From: Paragemmobacter ruber
GTDB lineage: Bacteria; Pseudomonadota; Alphaproteobacteria; Rhodobacterales; Rhodobacteraceae
Direction of reading: 5' to 3'
Assembly (NCBI RefSeq): GCF_009908315.1
Contig: NZ_JAAATW010000006.1
Coordinates: 1 to 55,903, forward strand
DNA: 55,903 nucleotides
Made by a program: the position numbers and the translations under genes. Below are positions 16,090 through 50,939 of the stretch, piece after piece (the stretch's first letter is position 1; each line of letters begins with the position of its first letter). Below the pieces are notes generated by a model. The model had not been told where the DNA came from and did no database searches. It saw only the letters and a program-made list of their open reading frames with translations.

Positions 16090-18245
<2,156 letters not shown>

Positions 18246-18420: not shown

Positions 18421-18429
18421 GCCACGCCC

Positions 18430-18990
18430 TCAATCCAGCTTGCGGATATAAGTCCAGGTCGGCACGCGGGCATTGCGCGCCACCGAGAATGTCTCTGCAT
18501 CGCCCAGATACTGGAAGCCCGCATTGGTCAGCACCCGCGCCGAACCGGGATTGTCCTGGAACACTTCGGCAAAGATCGTGCGGTTCTTCTGCGGATTGGC
18601 CGCGATCAGCGCGCGCAGCGCCTCGGATGCGAAGCCCGTATTCCAGAAGGCAGGCGCCACCCAATAGCCGATTTCCGACTGGCCGCGATCCCATTTCGTC
18701 TCGTCCATCCGCTTCAGGCTGATCACGCCCAGCACCTCGGCCAGACCGGAGGCCGCGCCATCCATCACCCAGACATCCTCATCCCCGCCCACCTGCATGG
18801 CACGGGTGACAAAGGCCTCTGCCGCGCCCGGGGGCAGTGGATGCGGGATCGACCGCGTCGCCTCGGCCACGCGCCGATCGCCGGCATAGAGCGCGAACAG
18901 CCCGGCATCCGACCGGCGCACCGGGCGCAGGATGAACCGTCCGGCCGCGATGGCACCCTCGGGCAGAGCGGCAATCTTGTCGAGCATCAT
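18430..18990 (-). CDS. GNAT family N-acetyltransferase (RimJ/RimL-like)
   Basis: This 186-aa protein is a GNAT acetyltransferase of the RimJ/RimL type, which acetylates N-terminal or small-molecule amines with acetyl-CoA. It shows GRFILRPVRRSDAGLFALYA (strand and helix 1), SEIGYWVAPAFWNTGFASEALRALIA (acetyl-CoA binding region) and VFQDNPGSARVLTNAGFQYLG (typical N-x-x-S-x-x-V-L-x-x-x-G-F). The ATG at 18990 follows AGGAGGGAAGCC. It lies between rpmA and obgE on the same strand, as in many Rhodobacterales. The substrate is unknown. Confidence 0.88.
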   Translation of the reverse strand: MMLDKIAALPEGAIAAGRFILRPVRRSDAGLFALYAGDRRVAEATRSIPHPLPPGAAEAFVTRAMQVGGDEDVWVMDGAASGLAEVLGVISLKRMDETKWDRGQSEIGYWVAPAFWNTGFASEALRALIAANPQKNRTIFAEVFQDNPGSARVLTNAGFQYLGDAETFSVARNARVPTWTYIRKLD

Positions 18991-19177
18991 GGCTTCCCTC
19001 CTGCTGAAGCGCATGTCGGGGGTACAATAGCCCCCTTCAAGTGGTTACGGCACGAAGCGCGGTGAAATGAGCCCGCACTCCGGCTTTTTTGCGACCGGCC
19101 CCACGGGATCCTCTCCCCTAGGCCGCGGCGCAGGCTCCTCTCCCGCGCCACCCCGGCGCCGGGCCGGAAAATGACTT

Positions 19178-19225
19178 GGGGGACCGGCCTGTCAGCCGAT
19201 CCCCCGTTTACAATCCGATTGTAAA
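19178..19225 (-). terminator. rpmA terminator hairpin plus adjacent inverted repeat
   Basis: An 11-bp stem (19178-19188 with 19195-19205, one T-G wobble, 6-nt loop) lies about 29 nt past the rpmA stop. Directly next to it, 19207-19225 is a second perfect inverted repeat, TTTACAATC-C-GATTGTAAA. The first hairpin is the likely terminator of rplU-rpmA. The AT-rich second one could assist it or act as an RNA processing or binding site. Confidence 0.6.
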
Positions 19226-19233
19226 GGTTCGGC

Positions 19234-19503
19234 TTACTCGGCTGCCTCCGCGACCGGGAGAACCGAAATGAAGGTGCGGCCTTTCAGGCCCTTCTTGAAG
19301 GTCACCTTGCCCTCAGTCACAGCAAAGATCGTGTGATCGGTGCCCATGCCGACGCCCTGACCCGGGAAGTAGGTCGTGCCGCGCTGGCGCACGATGATGT
19401 TGCCCGGGATGGCGGTCTGGCCGCCATAGAGCTTCACGCCGAGACGGCGACCGGCGCTGTCGCGACCGTTGCGGGACGAACCGCCTGCCTTTTTATGTGC
19501 CAT
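19234..19503 (-). CDS. rpmA: 50S ribosomal protein L27
   Basis: This 89-aa protein is L27, at the peptidyl transferase centre. It starts [20 protein letters not shown], the universal N-terminus that reaches the tRNA CCA ends, and continues [22 protein letters not shown]. There is no cleavable N-terminal extension as in Firmicutes. It follows rplU by 13 bp in the usual order. Confidence 0.98.
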
Positions 19504-19516
19504 GGGGTTTTACTCC

Positions 19517-19972
19517 TTATTCCGCAGCGGCTTCGGCGGCCTTTTTGGCGCGCTTCGGTTTCGCAGGTGCTTCCGCAGCCGGGGCGGCGGCAGCGTTGTG
19601 GGCGGCGCGGCGCGCATCGGCCGTGCCGGTCGCAGCAGCGACGCCCGACTTATCGGCACCCGTGGCCAGCACTTCGGTCACGCGGACCAGCGTCAGTTGC
19701 TGACGGTGGCCTTTGGTGCGCTGCGAGCTGTGCTTGCGGCGGCGCTTGACGTAGTGGATGGTCTTTTCGCCCTTGATCTGGTCGATCACCTCGGCCACGA
19801 CCGCCGCACCCTTCACGGTGGGCACGCCGACGGTGACGGTCTCGCCACCGACCATCAGGATTTCATTGAACTGGATCTTGTCACCAGCGGTGGCAGCAAG
19901 CTTTTCCACGCGCAGAACGTCACCCGCCTGCACCTTGTACTGCTTGCCACCGGTCTTCAGGACCGCGAACAT
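19517..19972 (-). CDS. rplU: 50S ribosomal protein L21 with C-terminal extension
   Basis: This 151-aa protein has a standard L21 core (residues 1-103: MFAVLKTGGKQYKVQAGD, IHYVKRRRKHSSQRTKGHRQ, LTLVRVTEV), which binds 23S rRNA. After it comes a roughly 48-residue Ala/Lys-rich tail (AAAPAAEAPAKPKRAKKAAEA). Such tails are common in alphaproteobacterial L21 and are presumably disordered. The start at 19972 is fixed by MFAVLKTGGKQY and a GGAAGAGG upstream. It is transcribed from the promoter at 20112-20140. Confidence 0.97.
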   Translation of the reverse strand: MFAVLKTGGKQYKVQAGDVLRVEKLAATAGDKIQFNEILMVGGETVTVGVPTVKGAAVVAEVIDQIKGEKTIHYVKRRRKHSSQRTKGHRQQLTLVRVTEVLATGADKSGVAAATGTADARRAAHNAAAAPAAEAPAKPKRAKKAAEAAAE

Positions 19973-20111
19973 GGGTCTTCCTCTTCCTAGCTCCGCGCCC
20001 TGTGGCCCCCAGTTACGGGCGTTCCGGGGTATCCCCGCCTCGGGCAGCGCGCCCTGTCGGGCGTCATCAAAAACGATACCCGCCAAGACTCGCGCCTTGC
20101 CGGGATGGCGG

Positions 20112-20140
20112 CTTATCGGGGCAACGTCCCGCGAAGTCAA
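20112..20140 (-). promoter_or_regulatory. rplU-rpmA sigma70-type promoter
   Basis: On the minus strand, TTGACT (20135-20140), a 17-nt spacer and GATAAG (20112-20117) form a good housekeeping promoter. Transcription would start near 20105, leaving a leader of about 130 nt before rplU, long enough for an autoregulatory r-protein leader structure. No known leader motif was verified. Confidence 0.6.
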
Positions 20141-20172
20141 GCCCGATCGCAACCACCCGACGGATTGTCGGA

Positions 20173-21400: not shown

Positions 21401-21490
<90 letters not shown>

Positions 21491-21879: not shown

Positions 21880-22008
21880 TCAGAACAGGCCCCCCTTGCC
21901 CTTGGCCGTGAAACGCGTCTTGCGTCTGCGCGGCGTCCGGGCCGCGTCGCCACTGCGCGAAGGGCCCTCATCCCTGATCTGGGGGATGTCCGCACAGACG
22001 ACGGTCAT
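21880..22008 (-). CDS. Possible 42-aa protein or truncated gene at the end of the moc-like operon
   Basis: The ATG at 22008 overlaps the stop of the PanB-like gene as ATGA, the same coupling used throughout this operon. It opens a 42-codon frame starting MTVVCADIPQIRDEGPSRSG and ending in a basic segment (RRRKTRFTAKGKGG). I do not recognise it. Because family-like sequence seems to continue in other frames below it, it may be the head of a frameshifted gene. Confidence 0.3.
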   Translation of the reverse strand: MTVVCADIPQIRDEGPSRSGDAARTPRRRKTRFTAKGKGGLF

Positions 22009-22808
22009 CGTGCTGTCTCGATGCGTGCCAGGAAGGACGCGGCCTCCTCTGGGGCCATGCGGACGATATGGCGGTCTTCCGGATAGGCCCCCGATGCCAC
22101 ATCCGAGATGAACTCGCGGAACGCCGCGATGCGCTCTGACTGCAGGCGGTCGAACTCTGCCGCGAAGTTCCGATAGACCTTGGAATGGCGGGGCATATGG
22201 CCGCGATTTGTGCCAAGGATGTCCTCGGCAAACAGGTACTGCACATCGCAACCCGGACCCGATCCCATCGACCACAGCAGGATTCCCACCCGCGCGCTGA
22301 TCGCGCTCGCGACCTCGACAGGCACCACCTCGATCTCCACGGCAAAGGCCCCGGCCTCTTCGTAGGCGCGCACCTCCTCGAACAGGACCATCGCCGCATC
22401 CGCCGTCTTGCCCACCGCCTTGAAGCCGCCCGTCCAGGTCGCGCGCGACGGCACCAGCCCGACATGCCCCACCACGGGGATATGCTCTTCGGCCAGATAG
22501 CGCACCGTCCCCAGACCGGCCGAGCAGTAGAGCGCATCCGCCCCCGCCATCAGCATCCGGCCCGCAAAGCGCAGATAATCCTCGCGCGTTCCAGCCTCGC
22601 GGTGATCCACACCCGTCATGGAAAACAGCGTGGGGGCCACCTGCCGATACTCCGGGTCGGTCGCCAGCGCGGGTGGGATCGACACCACGTCGATCCCTGC
22701 CGCCTCGGCGGCTGCCGCCTCTTCCAGGGTGAAGATGCGCAGCATCGTCAGCTGCCCCTTTCCCTTGCGGGCCCGCAGGTCGGCAACGGTCGGTTTCCGG
22801 CGGGTCAT
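22005..22808 (-). CDS. PanB-like (ketopantoate hydroxymethyltransferase family) protein with altered active site
   Basis: This 267-aa protein aligns with PanB, a TIM barrel that transfers a hydroxymethyl group from methylene-tetrahydrofolate to a 2-oxo acid. Kept features include GHVGL (His115, E. coli GHLGL), GGFKAVGK (E. coli GGYKVQGR), EIEVVPVEVA with Glu160 (E. coli ECVPVELA) and a C-terminal SGAYPEDRH. Lost features include the Mg-binding GDS, read here as IPPALATD; the second metal Asp, where the segment is FSMTGVDHREAG; and KIEGG, which reads YCSAGLG. It is therefore unlikely to make ketopantoate. It is the last main gene of the transport/oxygenase operon, overlapping the ferredoxin gene by ATGA. 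One possibility is handling of the C1 unit released by the oxygenase; a lyase of the related PEP-mutase type is another. Confidence 0.65.
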   Translation of the reverse strand: MTRRKPTVADLRARKGKGQLTMLRIFTLEEAAAAEAAGIDVVSIPPALATDPEYRQVAPTLFSMTGVDHREAGTREDYLRFAGRMLMAGADALYCSAGLGTVRYLAEEHIPVVGHVGLVPSRATWTGGFKAVGKTADAAMVLFEEVRAYEEAGAFAVEIEVVPVEVASAISARVGILLWSMGSGPGCDVQYLFAEDILGTNRGHMPRHSKVYRNFAAEFDRLQSERIAAFREFISDVASGAYPEDRHIVRMAPEEAASFLARIETAR

Positions 22809-23128
22809 TGCGTTTCCTCCAGCCCGATTTCCACCCGGTCCCCGGCCACGCGCACGGGGTAGATGCGCAGGTTGACGCAGACCGGCGCCCGCAGCGCCGC
22901 CCCCGTCTTGTAGTTGAAGCGCCCGTTATGCTTGGGACATTCGATCTGGTCCCCCATCACAAGCCCGTCGGCCAGATGCACCCGCTCATGCGTGCAAAGC
23001 CCGTCCGTGGCAAAGAAGGCCCCTGCAGGATCGCGGTAGATGGCAAAGCTCGCCCCGCCATGATCGAAGCGCAGAACATCCTCAGGTTCAATATCGTCCA
23101 GCCCGCAGGCCTCTATCCATTTGGTCAT
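22805..23128 (-). CDS. Rieske [2Fe-2S] ferredoxin (MocE-like)
   Basis: This 107-aa protein is a soluble Rieske-type ferredoxin. The cluster ligands are Cys45-x-His47 (CTHERVHLADG) and Cys64-x-x-His67 (ECPKHNGRF), with normal spacing. It resembles ferredoxins of multicomponent oxygenases and MocE of the rhizopine moc genes. It sits 3 bp downstream of the MocD-like oxygenase gene, so it is the likely electron donor to that enzyme. No ferredoxin reductase gene (a MocF equivalent) is in the window, so a reductase elsewhere must be used. Confidence 0.88.
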   Translation of the reverse strand: MTKWIEACGLDDIEPEDVLRFDHGGASFAIYRDPAGAFFATDGLCTHERVHLADGLVMGDQIECPKHNGRFNYKTGAALRAPVCVNLRIYPVRVAGDRVEIGLEETQ

Positions 23129-23131
23129 GTC

Positions 23132-24232
23132 TTACCCCATGCTTGCCCGTTCGGGCACGGTTGTGTGGAATTCCTCGCGATAGGGCCGCGCCGTCGGGGG
23201 CAGCTCCCTGCGCAGGTAATAGCCCGGCTCGCGCCGCTGCCGCAGGATCGCCGGCACCATCTCGCGGAAGGCCGACCAGATCGACGGGTTCGCAGGCGGC
23301 AGGTCGTGCTTGATCAAGGCATGCAGCCGCGGCAGGGCGTGATAGGGCACCATCGGGAACATGTGATGCTCCACGTGGTAGTTCATGTTCCAATAGATCC
23401 AGCGACTGATCGGGTTCATCAGAACCGTCCGGCTGTTCAGGCGGTGATCCACGACATCCTCTGCCAGACCGCCATGCTGGATCAATCCGGTCATGAACAT
23501 ATGCCAGCACCCATAGATCCGCGGCCCCCCGATCAGCATCAGGGGCAGGATTGACCCCATCCAGATCGCCGCAACCACGGCCGCCCCCTGAATGGCCACA
23601 TGGATGCGCGCCGCCAGGATTGCCTTGGGGATCTCGCGCTCCGGGATATAGTCGCGCTCATCCGCCGTCAGTATCCCCGCCGCGTTCCGCAACAGCACCT
23701 TGAAGGATGCCCAGATGTCCAGAATTCCAATGAAATGCAGCAGGTTGGGCAAGATCCCGGTCGGATGCATGAAGGCGATCTCGGGGTCGCGCCCCACGAT
23801 GATCGTGTCCGTATGATGGCGCGCATGGCTCCAGCGCCAGCTTACCGGGTTGCGCATCACCATGAAGCTGGCGATGTGATAGACGACATCGTTCATCCAT
23901 TGCGTGCGGAACGCCGTGCCGTGCCCGCATTCGTGCCAGCGGCTGTCGCAGGCCGATCCGTACAGCACGCCATAGACCATGAAGAAGGGCACCGCCGTCC
24001 AGCTTCCCCAAAAGGCGATGCCCCCCGCCGCCGACAGGACGAGCAGCCCGATCCAGATCGCCGTATCGCGCAAGGCAGGCCCGTCCCTGCGCTGCATCAG
24101 CTCTTTCATCACCTTGCGCGGCACCTCGGAATGATACCACTCCGCCGATGCAAGGCCGAGTTCGACCGCCCGCCGCGCACTTGGCCCGGTCAGGCTATAA
24201 TCGCGCTTCTGGACAAACGGCAACGTCGTCAT
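23132..24232 (-). CDS. Membrane fatty-acid desaturase superfamily oxygenase (MocD-like)
   Basis: This 366-aa membrane protein has the three histidine boxes of diiron desaturases/hydroxylases: HECGH (100-104), HARHH (136-140) and HVEHH (286-290). Hydrophobic pairs lie at about 57-95 and 205-240. It resembles MocD of rhizopine catabolism rather than a lipid desaturase, and its neighbours (Rieske ferredoxin, Gfo/Idh and TIM-barrel sugar enzymes, sugar ABC transporter) favour a small polar substrate. Likely chemistry is hydroxylation of an O- or N-alkyl group leading to dealkylation and release of formaldehyde. The start at 24232 overlaps the DUF4432 stop as ATGA. Confidence 0.8.
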   Translation of the reverse strand: MTTLPFVQKRDYSLTGPSARRAVELGLASAEWYHSEVPRKVMKELMQRRDGPALRDTAIWIGLLVLSAAGGIAFWGSWTAVPFFMVYGVLYGSACDSRWHECGHGTAFRTQWMNDVVYHIASFMVMRNPVSWRWSHARHHTDTIIVGRDPEIAFMHPTGILPNLLHFIGILDIWASFKVLLRNAAGILTADERDYIPEREIPKAILAARIHVAIQGAAVVAAIWMGSILPLMLIGGPRIYGCWHMFMTGLIQHGGLAEDVVDHRLNSRTVLMNPISRWIYWNMNYHVEHHMFPMVPYHALPRLHALIKHDLPPANPSIWSAFREMVPAILRQRREPGYYLRRELPPTARPYREEFHTTVPERASMG

Positions 24233-25431
24233 GTCGTGATCTCCTTGGTCTTCTGAGCCCGCGTCAGGGGCCGGAAATTGCCCGAAGGTTCGGGAAAATC
24301 ATCCTCGGGCTGTGGCGCTATGGCGCGGATTTCCGCCTCGGCCTGCGCGATGGCCGCTGCCCCGTCGAGAACCTCGAAGGACAGCGCATAGTCGCAGCCC
24401 TCGCCCGGTCCGAGCCAGATCATCTCGCCCCTGTCGCGGGCCGCCTGATCGCCCAATACGTGATGCGTCGAAGGTTCGATCGCCATCGCGTAATTGCCCG
24501 ATTGAAGATACTGCCACTGAAAGTGGCAGGGCAATTCCGCCTTGCGTGTCACCACCTGCAGGCCAAGCGCGAGGCGGTCATTCACGATTGCGACCGGGAC
24601 GCGGCCCGCTGCATCGGCGCGCATCTCATGCTGCCAGACCTGTTCGGAAAACTCGTCAACCGGGCCACCCATACGCCTGTATCCGACGCCCTGCGCCCGG
24701 TAACCCGCGCCGCCATGCGCCGCCCAGACCACGTCCTCCACCGGCGCGACGAAGCGCGCCCCCTCATCCAGCACCGGATAGCCAAGATTGACGTGGTAAA
24801 AGATCATGTGCGGCGTCGGCCTGAAACCTGCATTCTCGACCCGGTCAGTCAGGCGGATCGTGTCCCCGCCCAGATCGGCCTCGATCCTGCGGCGCAGCAC
24901 CAGATGCTCGCCAAAGACCGCGGCCTGCACCACATCGGCCTCGGCCCAAAGGATGCAGCGCTCCCCCTGCCAGCTTTCGCCATATCCGCGCAGCCGTGCT
25001 GGCACCCCTGTCACGCGTCCATGCAGGACATGCGTGATGGTCCTGCGGTGCGGATAGCCATAGTTGGACGCGTCAACCGTTTCGGGACCCAGCGTGTGAT
25101 CCAGGCCGCAAGTCACCAGAAACCCCGAAAAGGAACGCGCCCAGCCAAGCCCGCCTTCGCCTTCGGCATCATGCAGCGCGGGGTTGCGGAAACCGGTGGG
25201 CGAATGCCAGCCGATGGCGCGCCCCTTGTGCTCTACCTCCGCCAGATCCATCGCGCGATCGACCATCACGGTGAAGCGCAGGCCCGTCCCGGTGCGGAAT
25301 TCCAGCATGCGCTGCCCACGCTCCACCCCGTCGCACAGCGTGACGAGGCGCACCCCTCCAAATTGCGAAAGGCTTCCTGTCCGCCGGGACAGATCAAGGC
25401 GTGAGTTTTCCCGACCGTAGAGATGAACCAC
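24229..25431 (-). CDS. DUF4432 family protein (aldose-1-epimerase-like)
   Basis: This 400-aa protein is a beta-sandwich of the galactose-mutarotase-like DUF4432 family. Typical segments are LEFRTGTGLRFTVMVDRAMDLAEVEHKGRAIGWHSPTG (given in part as DRAMDLAEV), SFSGFLVTCGLDH and FYHVNLGYPVLDEG. Family members sit in sugar and sugar-acid gene clusters and are thought to interconvert anomers or isomerise; no reaction is certain. I chose the GTG at 25431 because AGGAG lies eight bases upstream and the protein then starts VVHLYGRENSRL; the frame is open further upstream without support. It couples to the MocD-like gene through an ATGA overlap. Confidence 0.78.
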   Translation of the reverse strand: MVHLYGRENSRLDLSRRTGSLSQFGGVRLVTLCDGVERGQRMLEFRTGTGLRFTVMVDRAMDLAEVEHKGRAIGWHSPTGFRNPALHDAEGEGGLGWARSFSGFLVTCGLDHTLGPETVDASNYGYPHRRTITHVLHGRVTGVPARLRGYGESWQGERCILWAEADVVQAAVFGEHLVLRRRIEADLGGDTIRLTDRVENAGFRPTPHMIFYHVNLGYPVLDEGARFVAPVEDVVWAAHGGAGYRAQGVGYRRMGGPVDEFSEQVWQHEMRADAAGRVPVAIVNDRLALGLQVVTRKAELPCHFQWQYLQSGNYAMAIEPSTHHVLGDQAARDRGEMIWLGPGEGCDYALSFEVLDGAAAIAQAEAEIRAIAPQPEDDFPEPSGNFRPLTRAQKTKEITT

Positions 25432-25492
25432 GGCAACCGCTCCTGCTGCTTTCAGGGACCAGGGGGTGGCGGCTTCCCGCCACCCGATGTGA

Positions 25493-26407
25493 TCACAGAC
25501 CGTTCGCCTTGAACTTGCCGTCAAGGAAGGCCTTCGCCCGAGGAATGTCGTCCTCGGACAGATGTTCGATGATGACGGGGATGTTCGGATGCTTCTCGGC
25601 CAGCCGCTTCAGATACAGATCATAGTTAAGTGAGCCGAGCCCCGGCGCCGGAAGTTCGATCTCTCCCACGCCCCGGAAGGTGTGCGATTCCAGCGCATCC
25701 TCGTCGCCGATATCGGCATGCTTTTCCGATTTGTCGTCGCCAGACCGCTTCACGTCCTTGGCATGGGCGATGCGGATATGCTGGGTCAGCGTGTCAAAGA
25801 CCTGATTCAGGATCTGATCCATGCGGTCGATGTTGTGCGTCTCGAAATAGTTCGTCGGGTCCATCAAGAGGCCAAGCCCGGGATGATCGACCTGTGCAAA
25901 CATCTTCACCGTCTCCTCGACGCTGCCCACCACGTTGTTCACATAGGTCTCCAGCAGGAAGGTCGCGCCATGGTCATAGGCGGTCTGGGCGAGGTCGGCG
26001 ATGACCTTGCGGCACTCCTCGAACCCCTCCTCGGTCTTGTTCTTCGGATGGTGGACCCAGTCGGATTCCGTGTTGTAGGTTCCCGTCTCGGAAATCACAT
26101 AGGGCGTGCCAAAGCTGCGGGCATTGCGGATGATTTCCTTCAGATAGCCGACGCGCCGCGCCCGCTCGTCCTTGTCGGGATGAATGATGTTCGTATAGCC
26201 CGAAATGCAGCAGATCGGCAGGTTGTGGTCGCGGAAGGTGTCGCGCACACGCTTTGCCTTGTCCGCGGTGATCTGCCCCGCCGACAGGTCGATATCCTTG
26301 AAATGCAGGTCAAGCTGCACGGTAGTAAACCCCTGCGACTGGATCCGTCGCGCAGTCTCCTCAAGGCCATAGGGGTAGTATCCGGTGAAGATGCCCGAAT
26401 GAAGCAT
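25493..26407 (-). CDS. Sugar phosphate isomerase/epimerase-type TIM barrel
   Basis: This 304-aa protein is an AP-endonuclease-2/xylose-isomerase-like TIM barrel. Probable metal ligands are Glu in LLETYVNN (residue 153), Asp in LLMDPTNYFE, His in IAHAKDVK and Glu in VIIEHLSEDD. The family includes inosose dehydratases, MocC and 3-keto-sugar epimerases. Next to a Gfo/Idh dehydrogenase it probably isomerises, epimerises or dehydrates the keto product of that enzyme. GGGAGGACTACACC precedes the ATG at 26407. It lies 61 bp before the DUF4432 gene. Confidence 0.85.
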   Translation of the reverse strand: MLHSGIFTGYYPYGLEETARRIQSQGFTTVQLDLHFKDIDLSAGQITADKAKRVRDTFRDHNLPICCISGYTNIIHPDKDERARRVGYLKEIIRNARSFGTPYVISETGTYNTESDWVHHPKNKTEEGFEECRKVIADLAQTAYDHGATFLLETYVNNVVGSVEETVKMFAQVDHPGLGLLMDPTNYFETHNIDRMDQILNQVFDTLTQHIRIAHAKDVKRSGDDKSEKHADIGDEDALESHTFRGVGEIELPAPGLGSLNYDLYLKRLAEKHPNIPVIIEHLSEDDIPRAKAFLDGKFKANGL

Positions 26408-26427
26408 GGTGTAGTCCTCCCTTTGTT

Positions 26428-27516
26428 TTAGTCTGTCTTGATTTCGGAAAGGCGCACGGTGCGCCCCTCCGCGATCGATCGATATCCCGCCTCGATCAGC
26501 GCGACCGTCCGCACGTTGTCCGCCACCGACAGCGCAGGCGAAAGGCCGGTGGTCACGGCGTGCTGCAACTGCTCCATCACCCCGATGAAGGCATGCGGAA
26601 ACCACATCGTTCCCCAGGTGGGCGTGACCCACTCACCCTTCGTCGTCTTCTGCGACGCATACGTCAGGGTCGATGCCGCCCCGGTGGGCCAGCCGATCGT
26701 TCCCTTGGCCACCCCGGCCGTCCCCTCCACCCGGAACGTGATGTGCTGATCATCGCGATACCCCTCGGCGCGCGGGCCGGACCAGACATCCTCGAGCGAC
26801 AGGGCCAGCACACCCGACGGAAAGCGCAAGGTAGAGACGGTGATCCCGTCGCTATGGTCGAACTTGGTGCGCGGGTCCTTGCGCGTCAGCGTGGTGATTT
26901 CCTCCGGGTCACCGAACAGGAACCGCAGCACGTCGAGATGATGCACCGACATATTGGCCAGCGTCAGGCGGTCATATCCTTCAAGGAAGCCCTGCCAATG
27001 CGGGATGGCATGCATGTCGATCTGGGCAAAGACAATCTCGCCCAGTTCCCCCCGATCAAGGATCTGCTTGAGCACGCGCATCGACTGGTCATAGCGCATG
27101 TTCTGGTTCACGCTCAGGATCTTGCCCGCCGCCGCCGCCTCGTCCCTGAGCGCGATGGCCTCGGCCAATGTCAGCGCGAGCGGCTTCTGCGCGAGGATGC
27201 CCTTGATATGCGGCTGCTTCAGCGCAGCCCGGATCAGCGCGGGCTGCTGGTCCGGCGGATAGGCGATGTCGAGGATCGTGATGGATGGATCGGCGATCAG
27301 GGCCTCGGGCGTGTCATGCACCTTTCCGATGCCCCAGCGCTCTGCCACCGCCGCCGCCCTTGCCGGCGTGCGGCTGGCGATGGCCACCACGGGAAATCCC
27401 GCCTCCTTGTAGGCGGCCAGATGGCATTCTGCCATGATCATGCCTGCGCCGATGCAGCCGATGGGCTGCTCCTTGCTCCTGACCGATGGATCCGGCTGGA
27501 AGTCATGCATCGCCAT
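26428..27516 (-). CDS. Gfo/Idh/MocA family oxidoreductase
   Basis: This 362-aa NAD(P)-dependent dehydrogenase has a Rossmann start (IGCIGAGMIMAECH) and the catalytic-loop motif at QKPLAL, where the usual EKP is QKP; the Lys is kept. The C-terminal beta-sheet domain has NQNMRYDQSMRVLKQIL and the substrate-side MSVHHLDVLRFLFG. Members oxidise hydroxyls of sugars, inositols or their derivatives. In this operon it probably oxidises the demethylated or imported polyol. The ATG at 27516 follows GGGGGGAAACCGAAC. Confidence 0.88.
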   Translation of the reverse strand: MAMHDFQPDPSVRSKEQPIGCIGAGMIMAECHLAAYKEAGFPVVAIASRTPARAAAVAERWGIGKVHDTPEALIADPSITILDIAYPPDQQPALIRAALKQPHIKGILAQKPLALTLAEAIALRDEAAAAGKILSVNQNMRYDQSMRVLKQILDRGELGEIVFAQIDMHAIPHWQGFLEGYDRLTLANMSVHHLDVLRFLFGDPEEITTLTRKDPRTKFDHSDGITVSTLRFPSGVLALSLEDVWSGPRAEGYRDDQHITFRVEGTAGVAKGTIGWPTGAASTLTYASQKTTKGEWVTPTWGTMWFPHAFIGVMEQLQHAVTTGLSPALSVADNVRTVALIEAGYRSIAEGRTVRLSEIKTD

Positions 27517-27537
27517 GTTCGGTTTCCCCCCTCTGTC

Positions 27538-28581
27538 TCATGCGCGGCGCAGGGCCTGACCGCCCGCGCCAAAGAAATGTGCCCGTCCCAGATCGACCGA
27601 CAAAGTCACCGCTGTCGCGACGCGGATATCGGGCTGACCGCGCATCAGGGCGCGCAGCATCCGGCCGCCCACATCCAGCGTCACCACGGTGGTTCCGCCC
27701 AGCGGCTCTACCTCCCAGACCTTCGCCACCGCGCCATGGCCATCATGCGCGCCCACGCGGATGTCCTCTGGCCTGATGCCGATCTCTGCGGTCCCTGCCG
27801 GGGCAAGTCCTTCAAGCCGGATCACGCCGCCGCCGCCCTGCACCATCGCGACCGGCAGGATGTTCATCGCCGGCGCCCCGAGGAGCTGCGCCACATAGGC
27901 CGAGGCCGGGTGATCATAGATATCCACCGGGCGGCCGATCTGGCGGATCGCGCCCCGTTCCAGAATGGCCATCCGATCCGCAACCGACATCGCCTCTTCC
28001 TGATCATGCGTCACATAGATCAGGGTTCGTCCCGCCTCGCGCTGGATGCGCTTCAACTCCACCCGCGTCTCTTCGCGTAGCCTTGCATCCAGGGCCGAGA
28101 TCGGGTCATCCATCAGGAAGGCAACCGGGTCTCGCACCAGTGCGCGCGCGATGGCCACGCGTTGACGTTCGCCGCCTGAAAGCTGCGCAGGCATCTTGTG
28201 CAGCACATGCCCGATATGCAGCTTGGCCGCTGCATCCTTCAACCGCGCACCGATCACGGCTTCGGCCTCGCCCCGCTCCACCAGCGGAAAGCGCACATTC
28301 TGCTCGGCCGTCATATGCGGGAAAAGCGCGAGGTTCTGGAACACCATGGCGATGTTGCGCCGCGCGGGCGACACCTCATTCACGCGGCGGCCATCAATCA
28401 GGATCTCCCCCTCATCCGGCCGCTCCAACCCCAGGATCAGACGCAGCATCGTCGTCTTGCCAGAAAGCGGCGGCCCGAACAGGCAGAAGAACTCGTTATC
28501 GGCCACGGTAAAACTGGCATTGTCCACTGCCACCGTCTGGCCATAGCGTTTGGTGACGTTGTGAAAGCTGATCTCCGCCAT
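27538..28581 (-). CDS. ABC transporter ATP-binding protein (MalK/UgpC type), variant Walker A
   Basis: This 347-aa carbohydrate-type ATPase has an N-terminal nucleotide-binding domain and a C-terminal OB-fold (TOBE) regulatory domain. Walker A is unusual (FGPPLSGKTT instead of GPSGCGKST). The signature LSGGERQRVAIARAL is canonical, Walker B is VAFLMDDP (MDDP rather than LDEP), and the H-loop is VTHDQEEA. It is encoded next to a second, different ATPase; the two likely form a heterodimer. It is the fifth gene of the operon, starting one base after the stop of the second ATPase (TGAGATG). Confidence 0.9.
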   Translation of the reverse strand: MAEISFHNVTKRYGQTVAVDNASFTVADNEFFCLFGPPLSGKTTMLRLILGLERPDEGEILIDGRRVNEVSPARRNIAMVFQNLALFPHMTAEQNVRFPLVERGEAEAVIGARLKDAAAKLHIGHVLHKMPAQLSGGERQRVAIARALVRDPVAFLMDDPISALDARLREETRVELKRIQREAGRTLIYVTHDQEEAMSVADRMAILERGAIRQIGRPVDIYDHPASAYVAQLLGAPAMNILPVAMVQGGGGVIRLEGLAPAGTAEIGIRPEDIRVGAHDGHGAVAKVWEVEPLGGTTVVTLDVGGRMLRALMRGQPDIRVATAVTLSVDLGRAHFFGAGGQALRRA

Positions 28582-28582
28582 C

Positions 28583-29674
28583 TCAAACCTCCCGCAAGGC
28601 TGCGCCAGTGGCGGCGTCAAACAGGCGCAGCGCCCCCGGATGGGGGGCGAGATGGACCAGATCACCCACCAAAACCCGGGTATCGTTGTCGAACACGGCC
28701 TTGGCCGTGATCCCGTCACGCTCGAGATGGACGATGGTCCGCGCCCCGATGCGTTCAACGAAACCCACCGTCATGCCAAGCCCCGCCCCCGCTGCGACGA
28801 GGTCCACCTGTTCCGGCCGGAAGCCGAACTGCACTCCCCCCTTTGCCCGCCGCGCCGCCGCCGCCAGCGGCGCGTCGAGCACCGCAGACCGGCCCAGCGC
28901 ACCCAGATCAATGCGCAGCCCCTCCGCCCCCTCGACGGGCACGCCCGCCAGCAGGTTCATCCCCGGTGCGCCGATGAACCGGGCCACGAAGACATTGGCG
29001 GGGTTGTTGTACACCTCCAGCGGCGTGCCCACCTGCTGCAGCACGCCATGATCCATCACCGCGATGCGGTCCGCCATCGTCATCGCTTCAAGCTGGTCAT
29101 GCGTGACATAGACCATGGTCTGGCGGAACTCGCGCTGGATGTGCTTCAGTTCGGTCCGCATCACCGCCCGAAAGGCGGCATCCACATTCGACAGAGGTTC
29201 ATCCAGCAGGAAGATGGCAGGCTCCATCATGGCCGAACGACCGATGGCCACCCGTTGCAGGATGTTCACCGACAGCCCCGAGGCGGGACGGTCCAACAGA
29301 TCCCCCAGTTGCAGAAGATCGGCTATGGCAGCAGTTCGGCGCGCGATCTCTGCCTTCGGCGACCGCGCCATGCGCAAACCGTAGTCAAGGTTCTGGCGCA
29401 CGGTCATGTGGGTGAAGATCGCGTAATTCTGGAACACGAACCCCACGCCGCGCCTGCCCATGGCAACGCCCGCCATGTCACGGTCGCCGAACAATATGCG
29501 GCCCTCGCTCGGCTCTTCCATCCCCGCGATCATGTTCATCGTCGTGGACTTGCCGCAGCCCGACGGCCCCAGCAGCGCCATGAACTCCCCGTCGCCTATG
29601 CTCAGGTCCATGCTTTTCAGCGCGGTGAACCCGCCGAACCGCTTCACCAGATTCTCCAGACGGATCGCGGTCAT
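28583..29674 (-). CDS. ABC transporter ATP-binding protein with degenerate signature motif
   Basis: This 363-aa MalK-type ATPase has canonical Walker A (LGPSGCGKST), Walker B (IFLLDEP) and H-loop (VTHDQLEA). The ABC signature reads LSVNILQRVAIGRS instead of LSGGQ-QRVA. Paired with the other ATPase, one composite site would be canonical (this Walker A with the partner LSGGE) and the other degenerate. The same arrangement is known from GlpS/GlpT-type glycerol importers of rhizobia. The C-terminal TOBE domain is intact. ATGA overlap joins it to the upstream permease gene. Confidence 0.9.
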   Translation of the reverse strand: MTAIRLENLVKRFGGFTALKSMDLSIGDGEFMALLGPSGCGKSTTMNMIAGMEEPSEGRILFGDRDMAGVAMGRRGVGFVFQNYAIFTHMTVRQNLDYGLRMARSPKAEIARRTAAIADLLQLGDLLDRPASGLSVNILQRVAIGRSAMMEPAIFLLDEPLSNVDAAFRAVMRTELKHIQREFRQTMVYVTHDQLEAMTMADRIAVMDHGVLQQVGTPLEVYNNPANVFVARFIGAPGMNLLAGVPVEGAEGLRIDLGALGRSAVLDAPLAAAARRAKGGVQFGFRPEQVDLVAAGAGLGMTVGFVERIGARTIVHLERDGITAKAVFDNDTRVLVGDLVHLAPHPGALRLFDAATGAALREV

Positions 29675-30615
29675 GCTGCCCGCTCCTTCCGCGCCATCCG
29701 CTTGATCGCCCAGACGCAGGCCACCGACAGAACGAGCAGGATCACAAGGGCGATGGCCGCCACGTAACCCCAGATCAGATCCTGCGTGGTGATCTTGTAG
29801 ATGTAGACGCTGATGGTTTCCGTCGCGACACCCGGCCCGCCGCCCGTCATGATGAACAGCGTGTCAAAGATCTTGAAACACTCGATCACCCTTATGGCCA
29901 AGGCGATGATGATGATCGTCTTCATCCGGGGCAGCACGATGGTCCGGAACTTCTGCCAAGGCGACGCACCAAGCAGCGTGGCGGCTTTCATCTGATCTTC
30001 CGGCACCCCGACCAGCCCCGCCAGCAGAATGAGGAACATCAGCGGCGTCCATTGCCAGATGTCCGCCACCATCACGGCCAGCATCGCCAGCATCGGATCG
30101 GAAAGCCACGCCACCGTCACCGGCATGCCGAGGAGCGACGACAGGATGTCATTCACCGGACCGCCCGACTGGAACAGCATGTAGAACATGTATCCGGCCA
30201 CGGCGGGGACAACCATCATCGGCATGATGAGGATGGAATAGAAGACACGCTTTCCCGGAAAGCTGTCGGCAAACAGCGTCGCAAGGGCAAGGCCCAGCAG
30301 GAATTCCACAGGAACGCAGACCACCATCACCAGCGCCGTTCGCCCCAGTGCGGACCACAGCCTCCCATCCCCCGCCACATCGACGTAATTGGCAAAGCCG
30401 TTCCACAGTTCATATGCGCGCGGCCAGCCCAGCCCCGAGAGCGGCGACCAGTCCGTCAGCGAGATGTAAAGCTGCATCAGCAGCGGAAAGACCGAGATGA
30501 ACAGCACGAGAAGCTGGGCAGGCAGCGTAAGCCGAAGCCCAAGGCGCGCGCCCTCATCAGCTTCGCGCGCGGCGGGACGGGCGGGCATGTCCTTGCTGAT
30601 TTCTGCGCTGGTCAT
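29671..30615 (-). CDS. ABC transporter permease (MalF/UgpA type)
   Basis: This 314-aa inner-membrane permease has six predicted helices, the first at about residues 30-50 ([20 protein letters not shown]). The EAA-type cytoplasmic loop reads [21 protein letters not shown] and docks with the ATPase. It pairs with the MalG-type permease encoded just upstream (ATGA overlap at 30612-30615). The ATG at 30615 is fixed by that overlap and by the short cytoplasmic head typical of this subfamily. Confidence 0.92.
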
Positions 30616-31472
30616 TGCTTCAACGCTCCGAAAGTCAGGCCACGGACAAGGTGACGCTGGATCATGATTCCCAGAAACACGGGCGGAACGGCGGCAATCA
30701 GTCCAAGCGCGGCCTTCGCCCCGTAAAGTTGCCCCGTCATCGAAGAGGAAAGCGATGCCATGTAGACCGGAATGGTCACCCATTCCCGCGTCGTCAGCAG
30801 CAGCGCGATCAGGTAATCGGACCAGTTCAGGATGAAGACGAACAGCGCAGCCGAAGCAAGCGGCGCCCGCATCATCGGCAGGGTGATCCGCCAGAACACC
30901 CGCCCCCGCGAACACCCCTCCACCAGGGCCGCCTCTTCGATTTCGCGTGGCATGTCATCGAAGAAGGTTTTCATCAACCAGAAGGCGAATGGCAGCGTGA
31001 CGATCCCGTAGATCAGCGCCAATCCCCACCATGTGTCCATCAGGTTCAGAAAGGACCACATCATCATCACGGGGATCATCACCGCCATCGGCGGAAACAG
31101 CCGCAGCTGGATCAGCGCCAGCGGCAGGTTGCCCCCTGCCCCGAACCGCGACAGCCCATAAGCCGCCGAAGTGCCTGCCGCCATCGCGATCAGCGTGCCG
31201 AGGCTGGCCGATAGTAGCGATGACAGGATCGGCTTCGCCGCCGTCCGATCCAGCGCCACGATCAGGTTCGATCCGCTCTCACCAAAGATGTAGCGGAAAT
31301 TGTCCAGCGTCGGCTCCTTGGGAAACCACGTCAGATCGGCCCCTGTCGCCTGCCATTCGGCAATGGGCTTGAAGGCCATGGACACCATCCACAGGATCGG
31401 CACCAGTGTGATCGCGCAGGCAAGCAGGATCGCCGCATATCGAAAGGCCTCGAAGGCCGGGGAACGTCTCAT
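30612..31472 (-). CDS. ABC transporter permease (MalG/UgpE type)
   Basis: This 286-aa permease has six predicted helices and the EAA loop [22 protein letters not shown] near residue 190. The N-terminal helix [20 protein letters not shown] and the FKPIAEW segment are typical of MalG-type subunits. The ATG at 31472 is chosen from [10 protein letters not shown]; its ribosome binding site is weak, so translation may depend on the preceding solute-binding protein gene 62 bp upstream. Confidence 0.92.
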
Positions 31473-31534
31473 GGGAAGATCAACTTTCGGGATAGGTCGG
31501 CCGGGGCACGCTCGGGCGCCCCGGCCCGTCACGA

Positions 31535-33145
31535 TCAAACCGGATCGAGAACCGTGGGCCATGCCGCCTTGTTGGCACGCACGGCCTCGATGATCTTCTC
31601 CTCACCTGTGCGGCGGGTGATCTTCTGCCATTCGTCGGCGGCATCGGCCATTGCCTGCTCGGCCGTCTTGGCGCCCGTAAGTGCCGCCATCAGGTTCTCG
31701 TCCAGCGCATTGTGGAACGCCGTCGCGCCCGGATAGTTGATCGACGGCACGGTCCGGGCCACGGTCTCGCGCACCACGTCCATGTGATAGCCGTGATAGG
31801 TCTCGCGCACCAAGGGATCGCTGAAATCCGACAGGCGGAAGGGATCGAAATACCCGCCCGGATTGGCCGTCATCCACGAATAGATCCGGCTCGATCCCAG
31901 CCACTGCAACAGCAGATACGCCACTTCCGGATATTGCGACTGCGCACTGACCATCCCGGTCAGCGAGAACCACAGCACCGAACGGCTGACGATGTTGCCG
32001 TCGATCTCACGCCCCGGCGGCAGCATCGACCCGACCTTGCCGGTCACAACCGACCCGCTGTTGCCCGCATTGTCTAGGAACTTTGGCAGGTTCGAGAAGG
32101 CGCAGGTGATGGCCGTATTCCCGCTTCCGAAGCTGCCATACTGCTCTGGCCAGCCCCAGCTCACCGCATCCGGCGAATGATAGGACAGTGAGGCGACATA
32201 TTCCTGCGTCGCCGCAATCCCCTGCTCCCCCGCAATCAGCGGCACACCGTCATCGCCGAACAGGAACTGGTTGGGCGAGGCCATGCTCGCATAGCGCTGA
32301 TACCAGTTGGTATAGCCCCAGCCCTGATTGCGCAGGTCGGTGCAGCCGAACATCCCCTTGTCAGGGCGATGGAAATGGGTGGCTACATCGTCCAGTTGCT
32401 TCCAGGTGCGCGGCGGCGCAAGGTCATAGCCATAGCTCTCCTTGAATGCCGCCTGCTCCGCCGCGTCTCCCAGTAGGTCGCTGCGATAGACCCAAGTCTG
32501 GAAATCGCCGTCGAGCGAAACGCCATAGGTCGATCCGCGATACTGATTGAGCAGCGCAACGCCCTGCGCCCCGCCGACATAACCGCGTTCGGCATCGTCC
32601 CATTCCGGCCGGTGTTGCGCGACATAGTCATCCAGCTTCGCGATGCCGCCCGACTCCGCCAGATCCCCCAGACGGTTCCAATCCGTCGAATAGATGTCAA
32701 ATCCGCCCGCCTTGGTGGATATGTCCTGCATCGTCTTGGTGAATTCCTGCCCGTTCGGCAGACCCACGATCTCGATCGCGATGCCGGTTTCCTTCTCCCA
32801 CAGGTCCTTGATGGAAGGCGCGCCCGCCGGGAATGGCTGGGTCAACTGGCCAATCGACCCGTCGGACAGGCCGACGACGATCTTGGCCGGGGCCTTGCCG
32901 GCCCCTTTCAACGCTTTCGCGGCCTCGATGGCACGCCCCTCTGGCGTGTCCGGCCCGTATTGGTAACGCTCGCATCCCGGAAAACCCGTCGGCCCGCCGA
33001 TCATGCCCGGGGCCAGCGCATCCGCCCCTTCGGCGCGGCTCGGCCGGATATAGCGCGGCGCGATTCCGATGGCCGCGCCATAGATAGCCAGCTTGCCACC
33101 GGTCGCAAGCAGTCGGCGCCGCGAAACGCGGTTCTGATTGGTCAT
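31535..33145 (-). CDS. ABC transporter solute-binding protein with Tat signal
   Basis: This 536-aa protein is larger than usual for sugar-binding proteins (about 420 aa) and resembles the long GlpV-like group. The N-terminus has a twin-arginine motif ([10 protein letters not shown]) and a hydrophobic stretch to about residue 30, so it is probably exported folded. [19 protein letters not shown] and [18 protein letters not shown] recall cluster-1 extracellular solute-binding proteins. As the first gene of the operon, with GGGAGGGATGCA before the ATG, it would be the most highly made component. The ligand is unknown; polyols and cyclitols are plausible from the neighbours. Confidence 0.9.
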
Positions 33146-33192: not shown

Positions 33193-33221
33193 AATATTGA
33201 TGACATCAATCAGCAGGTCAA
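33193..33221 (-). promoter_or_regulatory. Operon promoter
   Basis: Minus strand TTGACC (33216-33221), a 17-nt spacer, and AATATT (33193-33198) form a sigma70-like promoter for the solute-binding protein gene. The start would be near 33186, giving a 40-nt leader. The spacer contains a perfect palindrome (33196-33210). Confidence 0.6.
33196..33210. promoter_or_regulatory. Candidate operator inside the promoter spacer
   Basis: ATTGATG-A-CATCAAT is a perfect 7-bp inverted repeat around one base. It overlaps the -10 region and the spacer of the operon promoter, where a bound repressor would block RNA polymerase. The divergent LacI-type gene at 33460 is the obvious candidate regulator. Several related ATCA/TGAT words recur between 33250 and 33410. 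Confidence 0.6.
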
Positions 33222-33459: not shown

Positions 33460-34491
33460 ATGAACAGTCGCGTCACCCTGCACGACATCGCCCGCGCGGC
33501 GGGCGTGTCCGCTGCGACGGTCGACCGCGTCCTGAACAACCGCGACGGTGTGCGGCGCCGCACGCGTGACGTGGTGATGTCTGTCGCCCATCGCCTTGGC
33601 TATGTCAGCGAGGCGGATCTGCCGCCGGACGTGCGCAGCGTCGTTCAGCGTGTCACGCTGGTCTTTCTTCTCCCCGCAGGCACCAACAGCTTTATCAAGC
33701 TTCTCGCCCAGCAACTGGAACAGCAGGCCGCCGAACGACCCGACATAGACCTGCGCATCGAAGAGCTTGAGGGGTTCAATCCCACGACCGTCGCCGCACG
33801 ACTGGCCGAACTTCAGGGCGAGGCCCATGGCATCGGGCTCATCGCGCAGGACCACCCCGTCGTGCGCGAGGCCCTGCGCAGCCTCGACCGCGCCGGGGTT
33901 CCGGTGGTCACGCTCGCGTCTGACGTGCAAAGCGTGCCGCGTCTTGCCTATGTGGGCATCGACAACCGTCAGGCCGGGCGGCTGGCGGGGCAACTGATGG
34001 GCCGTCTGCTGCCCGCGCGCCAACACCTCAACATTGCCATGTTTGCCGGGTCTCTGTCCTATCGCGGCCACGAGGAACGCGAGATGGGCTTCCGCAGCAT
34101 TCTGCGTGACGAGTTCCGCAACATTCATATCGTTGAGATGCGCGAAGTCCTCGACGATCGCGAACGCGCCTATCATGAGGCGAAGTCGCTCCTGAAAATG
34201 TATCCCGATCTGGCCGGCATCTACAACGTGGGCGGCGGCACGCAAGGCATCGCCCGTTGCCTGACCGAGGCAGGGCGCGCACAGGATGTGATCCTGATCG
34301 GCCACGACGCGACCGAAGGCAACAAGCGCCTGCTCCTCGAGGGCACGATGGATGCGGTGATTGACCAGAACGCCCGCGTCGAGGCGCGCGAGGCGCTGAA
34401 CCTCCTCGTCGCCGCAACCCAGGGAAAGACCTACAACTTCATCCCGCCACGGCTGCATGTCATCTTTCGCGAAAACATCCCATACGATTGA
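33460..34491 (+). CDS. LacI-family transcriptional regulator (sugar-binding domain type)
   Basis: This 343-aa regulator has an N-terminal LacI helix-turn-helix (VTLHDIARAAGVSAATVDRVLN, shown here as SAATVDRVLN). Asp22 replaces the common Ser of TVSRVLN. A periplasmic-binding-like effector domain follows (VTLASDVQSVPRLAYVGIDNRQAG, IYNVGGGTQGIAR), similar to type-1 ribose-binding folds. GGAG lies seven bases before the ATG. It is divergent from the transport/oxygenase operon and is the probable regulator of it through 33196-33210, released by the imported sugar-like compound. Confidence 0.9.
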   Translation: MNSRVTLHDIARAAGVSAATVDRVLNNRDGVRRRTRDVVMSVAHRLGYVSEADLPPDVRSVVQRVTLVFLLPAGTNSFIKLLAQQLEQQAAERPDIDLRIEELEGFNPTTVAARLAELQGEAHGIGLIAQDHPVVREALRSLDRAGVPVVTLASDVQSVPRLAYVGIDNRQAGRLAGQLMGRLLPARQHLNIAMFAGSLSYRGHEEREMGFRSILRDEFRNIHIVEMREVLDDRERAYHEAKSLLKMYPDLAGIYNVGGGTQGIARCLTEAGRAQDVILIGHDATEGNKRLLLEGTMDAVIDQNARVEAREALNLLVAATQGKTYNFIPPRLHVIFRENIPYD

Positions 34492-36433: not shown

Positions 36434-37375
36434 ATGCCGAAACCGAAAAGCCGCAAGGTCATCATCACCTGCGCCGTGACCGGCTCGATCCACACGCCCA
36501 CCATGTCGCCCCACCTGCCGATCACGCCCGCGGAGATCGCCACCAGCGCCATCGCCGCCGCCGAAGCCGGGGCCTCGATCTTGCACCTCCACGCCCGCGA
36601 TCCCAAGGACGGTCGCCCGACCCCCGATCCAGAGGTCTTCCGCGCCTTCCTGCCCCAGATCCACGCGGCCACCGACGCCGTCATCAACATCACCACTGGC
36701 GGCGGCCACAACATGACCGTGCAGGACCGCCTGGCCGCCCCCCTCGCCTTCAAGCCCGAGATGTGCTCGCTGAACATGGGCTCGATGAACTTTGGCCTCT
36801 TTCCCCTGAAAGACCGATACCCGTCCTGGAAACACGAATGGGAGCCCGCCTATCTGGAAAACTCGCGTGATTTCATTTTCCGGAACACTTTCAAGGACAT
36901 CGAATACATCCTGAAGCATCTGGGCGAGGACTGCGGAACACGGTTCGAGTTCGAATGCTACGACGTCGGCCACCTTTACACGCTTGCGCATTTCCTCGAT
37001 CGCGGGTTGGTCCAGGCGCCACTCTTCATCCAGACGATCTTTGGCATCCTTGGCGGAATTGGCGCCGATCCGCGCCACCTGATCCACATGCGCGAAACCG
37101 CCGATCGTCTGTTTGGCGATGCCTATGAATGGTCGATCCTTGCAGCCGGGCGCCACCAGATGGGGCTTGCGACCATGGGCGCCGTCATGGGCGGGAATGT
37201 GCGGGTGGGGTTGGAGGACAGCCTCTATCTGGGCAAAGGGACGCTGGCGGAAAGCAACGCGGCTCAGGTCAGCCGCATCCGCACCATCCTGACCGAACTG
37301 TCACTTGACATCGCGACCCCCTCCGAAGCGCGGGCGATGCTTGACCTCAAGGGCGCGGCGGCGACCGCGCTGTGA
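36434..37375 (+). CDS. Beta-keto acid cleavage enzyme (BKACE, DUF849)
   Basis: This 313-aa TIM barrel belongs to the BKACE family, which condenses acetyl-CoA with a 3-keto acid and yields acetoacetate plus a shortened acyl-CoA. The Zn-binding His51-x-His53 is in SILHLHARDP. NITTGGG follows, and the catalytic Glu lies in GNVRVGLEDSLYLG near the C-terminus. The family start ITCAVTGSIHTP is typical. It is in one operon with the 3-hydroxyacid dehydrogenase (12-bp gap, AAGGAGCCTTCC before the ATG). The substrate is unknown; candidates include sugar-acid-derived or carnitine-like 3-keto acids. Confidence 0.92.
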   Translation: MPKPKSRKVIITCAVTGSIHTPTMSPHLPITPAEIATSAIAAAEAGASILHLHARDPKDGRPTPDPEVFRAFLPQIHAATDAVINITTGGGHNMTVQDRLAAPLAFKPEMCSLNMGSMNFGLFPLKDRYPSWKHEWEPAYLENSRDFIFRNTFKDIEYILKHLGEDCGTRFEFECYDVGHLYTLAHFLDRGLVQAPLFIQTIFGILGGIGADPRHLIHMRETADRLFGDAYEWSILAAGRHQMGLATMGAVMGGNVRVGLEDSLYLGKGTLAESNAAQVSRIRTILTELSLDIATPSEARAMLDLKGAAATAL

Positions 37376-50938: not shown

Positions 50939-50939
50939 G

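Follow-up and report, generated by a model that had tools for sequence, protein, structure and literature searches.

Among the closest known relatives of the system treated here are the moc genes for rhizopine (3-O-methyl-scyllo-inosamine) of Sinorhizobium and Rhizobium, whose operon also includes the Gfo-type MocA and the TIM-type MocC. Our analysis of 55,903 nucleotides of Paragemmobacter ruber (contig NZ_JAAATW010000006.1, positions 1 to 55,903; the window hereafter) showed an operon at 22005-33145 which shares with rhizopine mocDEF a MocD-type membrane oxygenase and a MocE-family Rieske ferredoxin, and which ends with a relative of the pantothenate enzyme PanB. MocDEF is known from an O-methyl substrate (PMC5789663), and the mocD promoter of S. 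meliloti L5-30 is inducible by scyllo-inosamine (PMC10107442). The gene order LacI, MocD, MocE, MocF, PanB relative was found on pSymB of S. meliloti 1021 and in R. etli CIAT 652. The S. meliloti genes SM_b20817-20820 are named in PMC11387232, and the PanB relative is not mentioned in the accessible parts of the literature on rhizobial mocDEF genes. Among these genes SM_b20818 encodes MocD, and the PanB-like gene comes after SM_b20820. MocDE(F) is already known. The PanB-derived partner is genuine and conserved, and one-carbon handling is the explanation that fits it best.

The PanB relative and its oxygenase partners

The PanB-like gene is located at 22005-22808 on the minus strand. Its product matches the Pfam family Pantoate_transf with 135 bits, over profile positions 92-258 of 259 (the second two thirds only), and is related by sequence to the solved PanB 1m3u, 3vav, and 3ez4. 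It falls below both PanB cut-offs of NCBIfam (121.9 against 272 bits and 98.7 against 207.55 bits). A true panB-panC pair is present at another place in the window genome, so pantothenate synthesis is covered. The reading as a spare pantothenate gene was rejected on these scores, on the presence of the true panB-panC pair, and on the lost ligands described next.

We aligned 45 PanB-like sequences (40 family loci, four named records, and the window) with 20 true PanB. Following E. coli PanB, we take D45, D84, K112, and E114 to be the metal/keto-acid ligands, and H136 and E181 to be the presumed catalytic residues or base. D45, D84, K112, E114, G115, and G116 are kept in 20/20 true PanB. In the PanB-like rows, E114 is found in 0/45, K112 in 0/45 (Y in 44 and M in one), and D84 in 1/45 (G in 42), and the two glycines G115/G116 are deleted in 44/45. 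The window protein has P, G, Y, and S at D45, D84, K112, and E114, respectively. H136, G138, P141, and E181 are present in all 45 and the glycine motifs are retained, while E158, Y94, W125, R207, and H208 are new near-invariant residues. In the tree, all 65 PanB-like and paralogue rows (the 45 and 20 more distant ones) split from the 20 true PanB with a branch support of 100. In the basal paralogues (L133-L136), K112, D45, and one or both of these glycines are retained, and L135, the sole basal protein scored, passes the PanB cut-off (280.9 against 272 bits). This indicates that the keto-acid site was lost by degrees along the tree.

Family loci were picked on the PanB-like score alone from 198 genomes of the window's family, and neighbours were recorded within about 10 kb. 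The 60 loci consisted of 40 high-scoring ones (not in strict rank order, some contig-end places having been skipped) and 20 more distant ones, a few of which score below 115 bits. As control we used 20 true panB loci, three on stretches of 9 to 13 kb and the others on 20 kb. Of the 40 high-scoring loci, 36 had a MocD or PF04116 oxygenase, 30 had MocE, and 38 had at least one of these. MocD or PF04116 was also found in 12 of the 20 more distant loci (a weak Rieske match in L134 was not counted), and four further distant loci, L133-L136, had a VanA-type Rieske oxygenase directly beside the PanB gene. The VanA_C domain was identified by Pfam in L134, L135, and L136, and the L133 homologue is 87% identical to that of L135. 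The oxygenase and PanB genes overlap by four bases in L135 and L136, and a GcvT-type folate-binding protein lies near the PanB gene in L135 (Pfam-confirmed), with homologues in L133 and L136. Altogether, an oxygenase of the MocD, PF04116, or VanA type, or MocE, accompanies 54 of the 60 PanB-like genes, whereas none of these, and no GcvT-type protein, was found in any of the 20 true panB loci. In nine loci (L056-L059, L066, L069, L071, L306, and L307) a PF04116-type oxygenase, assigned by Pfam in the L057 copy alone, replaces MocD and the PanB relative stays, mostly with MocE. Since three unrelated oxygenase classes are found beside PanB-like genes, the PanB relative seems to track oxidative demethylation rather than one oxygenase.

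The earlier note on this DNA had proposed an oxidative demethylation of the MocD/MocE type, which our analysis supports on both proteins. The Rieske protein (22805-23128, minus strand; Pfam Rieske) scores above the MocE-family cut-off of TIGR02377 (161.1 against 136.15 bits). The membrane oxygenase (23132-24232, minus strand; Pfam FA_desaturase, 125 bits) is 68% identical to the annotated mocD of R. etli CIAT 652, and its three His boxes, HxxxH at 100-104, HxxHH at 136-140, and HxxHH at 286-290, are invariant in the five aligned MocD rows. We built a 72-row tree by a quick method from 53 MocD rows, including L077, whose locus has neither MocE nor PanB, and from other FA_desaturases of the family, for which 30 loci were taken and 19 remained after 11 had dropped out; these comparison desaturases carry no functional labels. 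A single group (SH-aLRT 91) contains 51 of the 53 MocD rows, the mocD genes of S. meliloti and R. etli, and two further rows entered as other desaturases, which are MocD themselves (L232 is L036, and L240 is the MocD-MocE pair L328). The next-best desaturase of the window genome is outside this group, and the two remote MocD rows, L295 and L072 (both 33% identity), are placed among the other FA_desaturases. A lipid (fatty acyl) desaturase, which the earlier note had named as one outcome that would speak against its reading, was rejected: the window protein groups with MocD, apart from most other FA_desaturases compared.

We then consider named genomes, one per species and fetched by PanB-like alignment alone; these loci partly repeat the family genomes (L144 and L153, for instance, lie on contigs as long as those of L034 and L035), and some genomes contribute two. 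MocD and/or MocE were found in 80/80 of the best 80 of at least 433 confirmed relatives (MocD in 79, MocE in 69, both in 68, and MocF in 15), with Gfo in 46, TIM in 45, and DUF4432 in 45. The genera are Mesorhizobium, Tabrizicola, Rhodobacter, Cypionkella, Rhizobium, Shinella, Ensifer, Aureimonas, and others. Given this recurrence in the best 80 of at least 433, the arrangement is not a matter of chance, and the co-occurrence of MocD-like, MocE-like, and PanB-like genes in related genomes that the earlier note had suggested looking for was found. A lipid desaturase assembled by chance with unrelated neighbours would agree with the Pfam label FA_desaturase, but it is virtually excluded by the clade position of MocD, its MocE partner, and the 80 loci out of 80. 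The module occurs in many legume symbionts and Rhodobacterales, sometimes in several copies per genome. In a phylum-wide sample of 398 genomes, with the six best candidates per genome scored, PanB-like matches above 140 bits were found in 19 genomes, all of the window's class, and the next matches, taken as true PanB, begin at 131 bits. Of 15 loci from this sample, 11 had MocD, PF04116, or MocE.

Many Mesorhizobium loci contain a second importer, of the ribose type, inserted ahead of DUF4432. We also observed a conserved protein of about 350 aa which closes sister MocD operons after the ribose-type importer (L042:13329-14390, L333:13365-14417, and L075:18687-19733); no Pfam match was found for the L042 and L333 copies, and no NCBIfam match for the L042 copy.

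Proposed route and competing explanations

The evidence leaves us evenly balanced on the proposal as a whole, namely that the operon serves LacI-controlled import and oxidative demethylation of a methoxylated sugar, polyol, or cyclitol, with the PanB relative handling the one-carbon (C1) unit. Its parts are not equally strong. By analogy with MocDEF, it is probable that MocDE demethylates a methoxylated polyol or sugar. A C1 role of the PanB relative is plausible, falling somewhat short of even, and folate as the acceptor of the C1 unit is rather doubtful. On this route, the importer would take up a sugar, sugar alcohol, or cyclitol that bears a methoxyl group, either free or as a glycoside. 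MocD would hydroxylate the O-CH3 carbon, with electrons coming via MocE and a reductase encoded elsewhere, and the O-CH2OH hemiacetal would give the alcohol and a C1 unit at the formaldehyde level. The PanB-derived protein would be dedicated to this released unit. It may keep a putative one-carbon half-site and the general base without the metal/keto-acid half-site, and may move the hydroxymethyl group or formaldehyde onto tetrahydrofolate. PanB chemistry on an O-CH2OH donor would pass through no enolate, and hence would require no metal. In PanB, a TIM-barrel, metal-requiring enzyme of the aldolase type, the metal serves keto-acid enolisation (PMC7770189), so its loss fits an enol-free donor. 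PanB chemistry involves a methylene-tetrahydrofolate adduct, and methylene-tetrahydrofolate equilibrates with formaldehyde (PMC4814558). The Gfo/Idh/MocA, TIM-barrel, and DUF4432 proteins may then oxidise, isomerise, or mutarotate the freed sugar.

For the PanB branch in general, we tentatively suggest a dedicated one-carbon transferase that passes the C1 unit from MocD, PF04116, or VanA-type oxygenases to tetrahydrofolate. If this is true, the methoxyl carbon would be conserved and free formaldehyde avoided, the protein would correspond, on the folate side, to formaldehyde-activating enzymes, and the pantothenate annotation that the branch bears in many rhizobia and Rhodobacterales would be wrong. 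A C1 role would explain the fate of the methoxyl carbon and give a new folate enzyme. If it is false, the family remains large and misnamed, and its functional context is clear and testable.

Several observations weigh against this proposal. No oxygenase or MocE was found in six of the 60 PanB-like family loci (L060, L068, L118, L121, L122, and L137), nor in four of the 15 phylum-wide ones (L296-L299). In favour of the proposal, PanB-like and MocD distances are correlated over 40 loci (Mantel r 0.846, with 0/2000 permutations as high; L124 was dropped beforehand), but this result, like the trees, is confounded by shared ancestry. Counted from the MocD side against 76 PanB-like places of at least 115 bits (five at 102 to 112 bits being excluded, and some misses lying at contig ends), MocD genes of at least 60% identity have a PanB-like gene within 10 kb in 33/47 cases, and 14/47 are without one. 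Genomes with a PanB-like gene hold 39 of these 47, and eight of the 14 unlinked ones are in genomes where none is listed. At 50-60% identity, 3/16 are linked, and at 40-50%, 3/8. In L325, for example, LacI, DUF4432, MocD, and MocE are followed by an SDR and a Gfo protein, with no PanB relative. This suggests that the PanB relative is a frequent but not obligatory partner, at least in cis. The D45 position is still Asp in 8/45 PanB-like rows. No MocF reductase was found among the genes of 22005-33145, and the best match in the genome to R. etli MocF is 41% identical and on another contig. A glutathione-dependent formaldehyde dehydrogenase (586.6 bits) is already present in the window genome. 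As a separate observation, a MocF-like stand-alone ferredoxin reductase lies about 4.4 kb from a glutathione-type formaldehyde dehydrogenase in the window genome (G000:C4:228457-235145, L316).

Two rivals keep MocD as an oxygenase and give the PanB relative a different task. It is unlikely that, after demethylation by MocD, the PanB relative acts on the carbon skeleton, as a keto-sugar aldolase, epimerase, or lyase, and not on the C1 unit. The aldolase-type nature of PanB (PMC7770189, PMC4814558) agrees with such a role, the near-invariant E158, Y94, W125, R207, and H208 suggest a new substrate site, and MocD can occur without the PanB relative. However, three unrelated oxygenase types, several transporter types, and differing sugar enzymes accompany the PanB relative, so the shared factor looks like demethylation and not one skeleton, and H136 and E181 are kept in 45/45. 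It is improbable that MocD hydroxylates a ring carbon or C-methyl group, such as that of the C-methyl cyclitol laminitol, and that the PanB relative removes the C-hydroxymethyl group by retro-aldol cleavage. Formally this would be the PanB reaction reversed and would explain a PanB fold beside an oxygenase, and iolG-type dehydrogenases in several clusters could provide the required ketone; but a metal-assisted version would want exactly the ligands that are lost, the VanA_C domain found beside the basal PanB genes takes its name from O-demethylation, and MocDEF is known from an O-methyl substrate (PMC5789663).

The proposal of import, demethylation, and C1 transfer leaves room for more than one substrate. 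The earlier note favoured a methylated polyol or cyclitol. Sister-clade modules in or beside myo-inositol genes speak for this, and the DUF4432-type loci, which have no such neighbours, weaken the cyclitol part. Pinitol, ononitol, and other O-methyl cyclitols are common in plants, and it is possible that one of them is the window substrate and feeds the inositol pathway. An iol gene lies within about 10 kb in 15/40 PanB-like loci (seven with iolB, C, D, or E), against 0/20 true panB and 1/20 distant loci, and in L334 and L335 the MocD gene is itself part of an inositol gene cluster. The iol-linked MocD rows are mostly in a sister MocD clade of the 72-row tree. In the window itself a partial inositol-type cluster (38961-46069) starts 4.5 kb past the LacI gene of the operon. 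It contains a second LacI gene, two Gfo/Idh/MocA genes, an iolE-like gene (41129-42202; 170.8 bits, below the cut-off of 290), an iolB-like gene (43962-45203; 151.2 bits, below the cut-off of 205), and a class II aldolase gene (45200-46069). This iolE/iolB-like set is much like that beside MocD in L049, L053, and L334, and iolC/iolD lie elsewhere in the genome. In the exudate of Mimosa roots, which has pinitol as its most concentrated component, mocDEF homologues of R. mesoamericanum were up 1.5 to 2.1 fold, and iol genes were up too, from which the authors infer rhizopine use (PMC5789663). Relatives of the LacI regulator FixV adjoin mocDEF in rhizobia, and FixV has been proposed to sense an inositol derivative (PMC3538637).

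Against a cyclitol, a neighbouring iol gene was found in 0/6 DUF4432-type family loci versus 12/32 others (Fisher p 0.15, suggestive only), and in 0/45 DUF4432-type named loci by the score thresholds used, with weak iol-like matches in L192. Beyond the LacI gene, iol-like genes were found in none of the four relatives with that flank covered (L310, L311, L314, and L315). The only solved relative found for DUF4432 (3ty1) is named a 'hypothetical aldose 1-epimerase', and in Croceibacterium DUF4432 adjoins a GH78 gene. The ABC-Gfo-TIM-DUF4432 half also recurs without MocD, MocE, or the PanB relative in Pararhizobium and Pseudosulfitobacter, then with an SDR and a lactonase or a CoA-transferase, so a reducing sugar fits at least as well. 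Because sister clades lie in inositol operons and the DUF4432 clade does not, we regard a methylated reducing sugar and a methylated cyclitol as alternative candidates. Examples of the recurring half, presumably part of a further sugar route, are L079 3188-14232 and L080 2373-12009, where it is followed by an SDR and a lactonase or a CoA-transferase.

Operon layout and flanking genes

The earlier note described eleven genes on one strand facing a LacI regulator, with overlaps or gaps of up to about 62 bp, and the open reading frames, Pfam and NCBIfam matches, and likely starts that we chose confirm this layout. All eleven are on the minus strand and run from 33145 to 22005, and the LacI-family gene (33460..34491, plus strand) is divergent, with relatives 50-64% identical beside related operons. 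Neighbouring genes overlap by four bases at permease/permease, permease/ATPase, DUF4432/MocD, and MocE/PanB-like, and the widest gap, of about 62 bases, lies between the stop of the binding-protein gene and the permease ATG at 31472. A perfect 7-1-7 palindrome at 33196-33210, upstream of the binding-protein gene, is a possible operator; it was found in the window sequence only, and no convincing motif common to nine upstream regions (two of them duplicates) was found.

The first gene (31535-33145) encodes an extracellular solute-binding protein, with a twin-arginine signal read from its translation. It weakly matches two sugar-binding proteins of ABC importers with solved structures (5iai and 5ysb), is 76.7% identical to a binding protein of Pararhizobium qamdonense, and matched no NCBIfam model. 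Two permeases (PF00528) follow at 30612-31472 (longest frame from 31562) and 29671-30615 (longest frame from 30915), and then two ATPases of the UgpC/MalK type (Pfam ABC_tran/TOBE_2, NCBIfam) at 28583-29674 and 27538-28581 (longest frame of the latter from 28758). In having two ATPases and a long binding protein, the importer resembles the glycerol importer GlpSTPQV. The Gfo/Idh/MocA dehydrogenase (26428-27516; Pfam GFO_IDH_MocA) has IolG as its best NCBIfam match, but misses the inositol dehydrogenase model TIGR04380 (81.7 bits, below the cut-off of 355). An AP_endonuc_2 TIM-barrel isomerase/lyase (25493-26407; longest frame from 26632) and the mutarotase-like DUF4432 protein (24229-25524; PF14486, 311 bits) lie between it and MocD; the start of the DUF4432 gene, TTG at 25524 or GTG at 25431, is uncertain.

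About 500 bases past the operon end lies a tRNA-Ser(cga) gene (21401-21490), with ribosomal L21 and Obg genes near (17211-20152). The G+C content of the operon (0.62-0.64) is lower than that of its left flank (at least 0.656), and together with the nearby tRNA gene this suggests that the operon may be an insertion. On the other side, a beta-keto acid cleavage enzyme at 36434-37375 scores above the cut-off of the '3,5-dioxohexanoate:acetyl-CoA acetone transferase' model (538.9 against 430) and is adjoined by a 3-hydroxyacyl-CoA dehydrogenase. Chemotaxis genes for a CheA-like kinase, CheB, and a Cache-domain methyl-accepting protein lie at 48809-55349, near the sugar clusters.

Comparison with known systems

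The earlier note did not know the combination of DUF4432 with an altered PanB as a described pathway. The combination is real and widely conserved, and our literature search, which covered few subscription journals, gave no account of the PanB relative together with MocE, of pinitol catabolism, or of DUF4432; two listed articles mention DUF4432. Within the same scope, no bacterial gene set for demethylating O-methyl cyclitols was found, rhizopine mocDEF being the nearest. The 'moc' genes of PMC6341043 were set aside as mannopine genes, not mocDEF.

Rhizopine catabolism proper was rejected as the function. The rhizopine binding protein MocB (NF052284) had no match at E 1e-70 or better in the window genome. 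Only 2/385 genomes (G234 and G459) passed the rhizopine-binding-protein cut-off; iolC/D-like genes lie near, and no MocD, MocE, or PanB-like gene was present within 20 kb around the binding-protein gene. In gene content, the window operon differs from rhizopine moc in having a LacI and not a MocR regulator, a different ABC importer, and no MocF, and it adds DUF4432 and the PanB relative. Vanillate O-demethylase, a VanA-type Rieske oxygenase of the kind found beside the basal PanB paralogues, is unrelated to MocD and absent from the window operon. For the P450 that demethylates 6-O-methyl-galactose we know of no PanB partner. That system, from marine bacteria, likewise removes a sugar O-methyl group oxidatively to give formaldehyde, with another oxygenase (PMC10033563). 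True PanB belongs to the same family as the window protein and shares H136, E181, and the glycine motifs with it, but the window protein has lost the metal/keto-acid residues and belongs to a separate clade.

A further close likeness is to the rhizobial operons of R. etli CIAT 652 (pA) and S. meliloti 1021, in which LacI, mocD, mocE, and mocF genes are followed by a 'ketopantoate hydroxymethyltransferase'. These are annotated for rhizopine or pantothenate, have MocF, and have no adjoining ABC-Gfo-TIM-DUF4432 half. They share with the window operon the divergent LacI gene, MocD, and MocE, and their PanB relatives are about 60-62% identical to the window protein.

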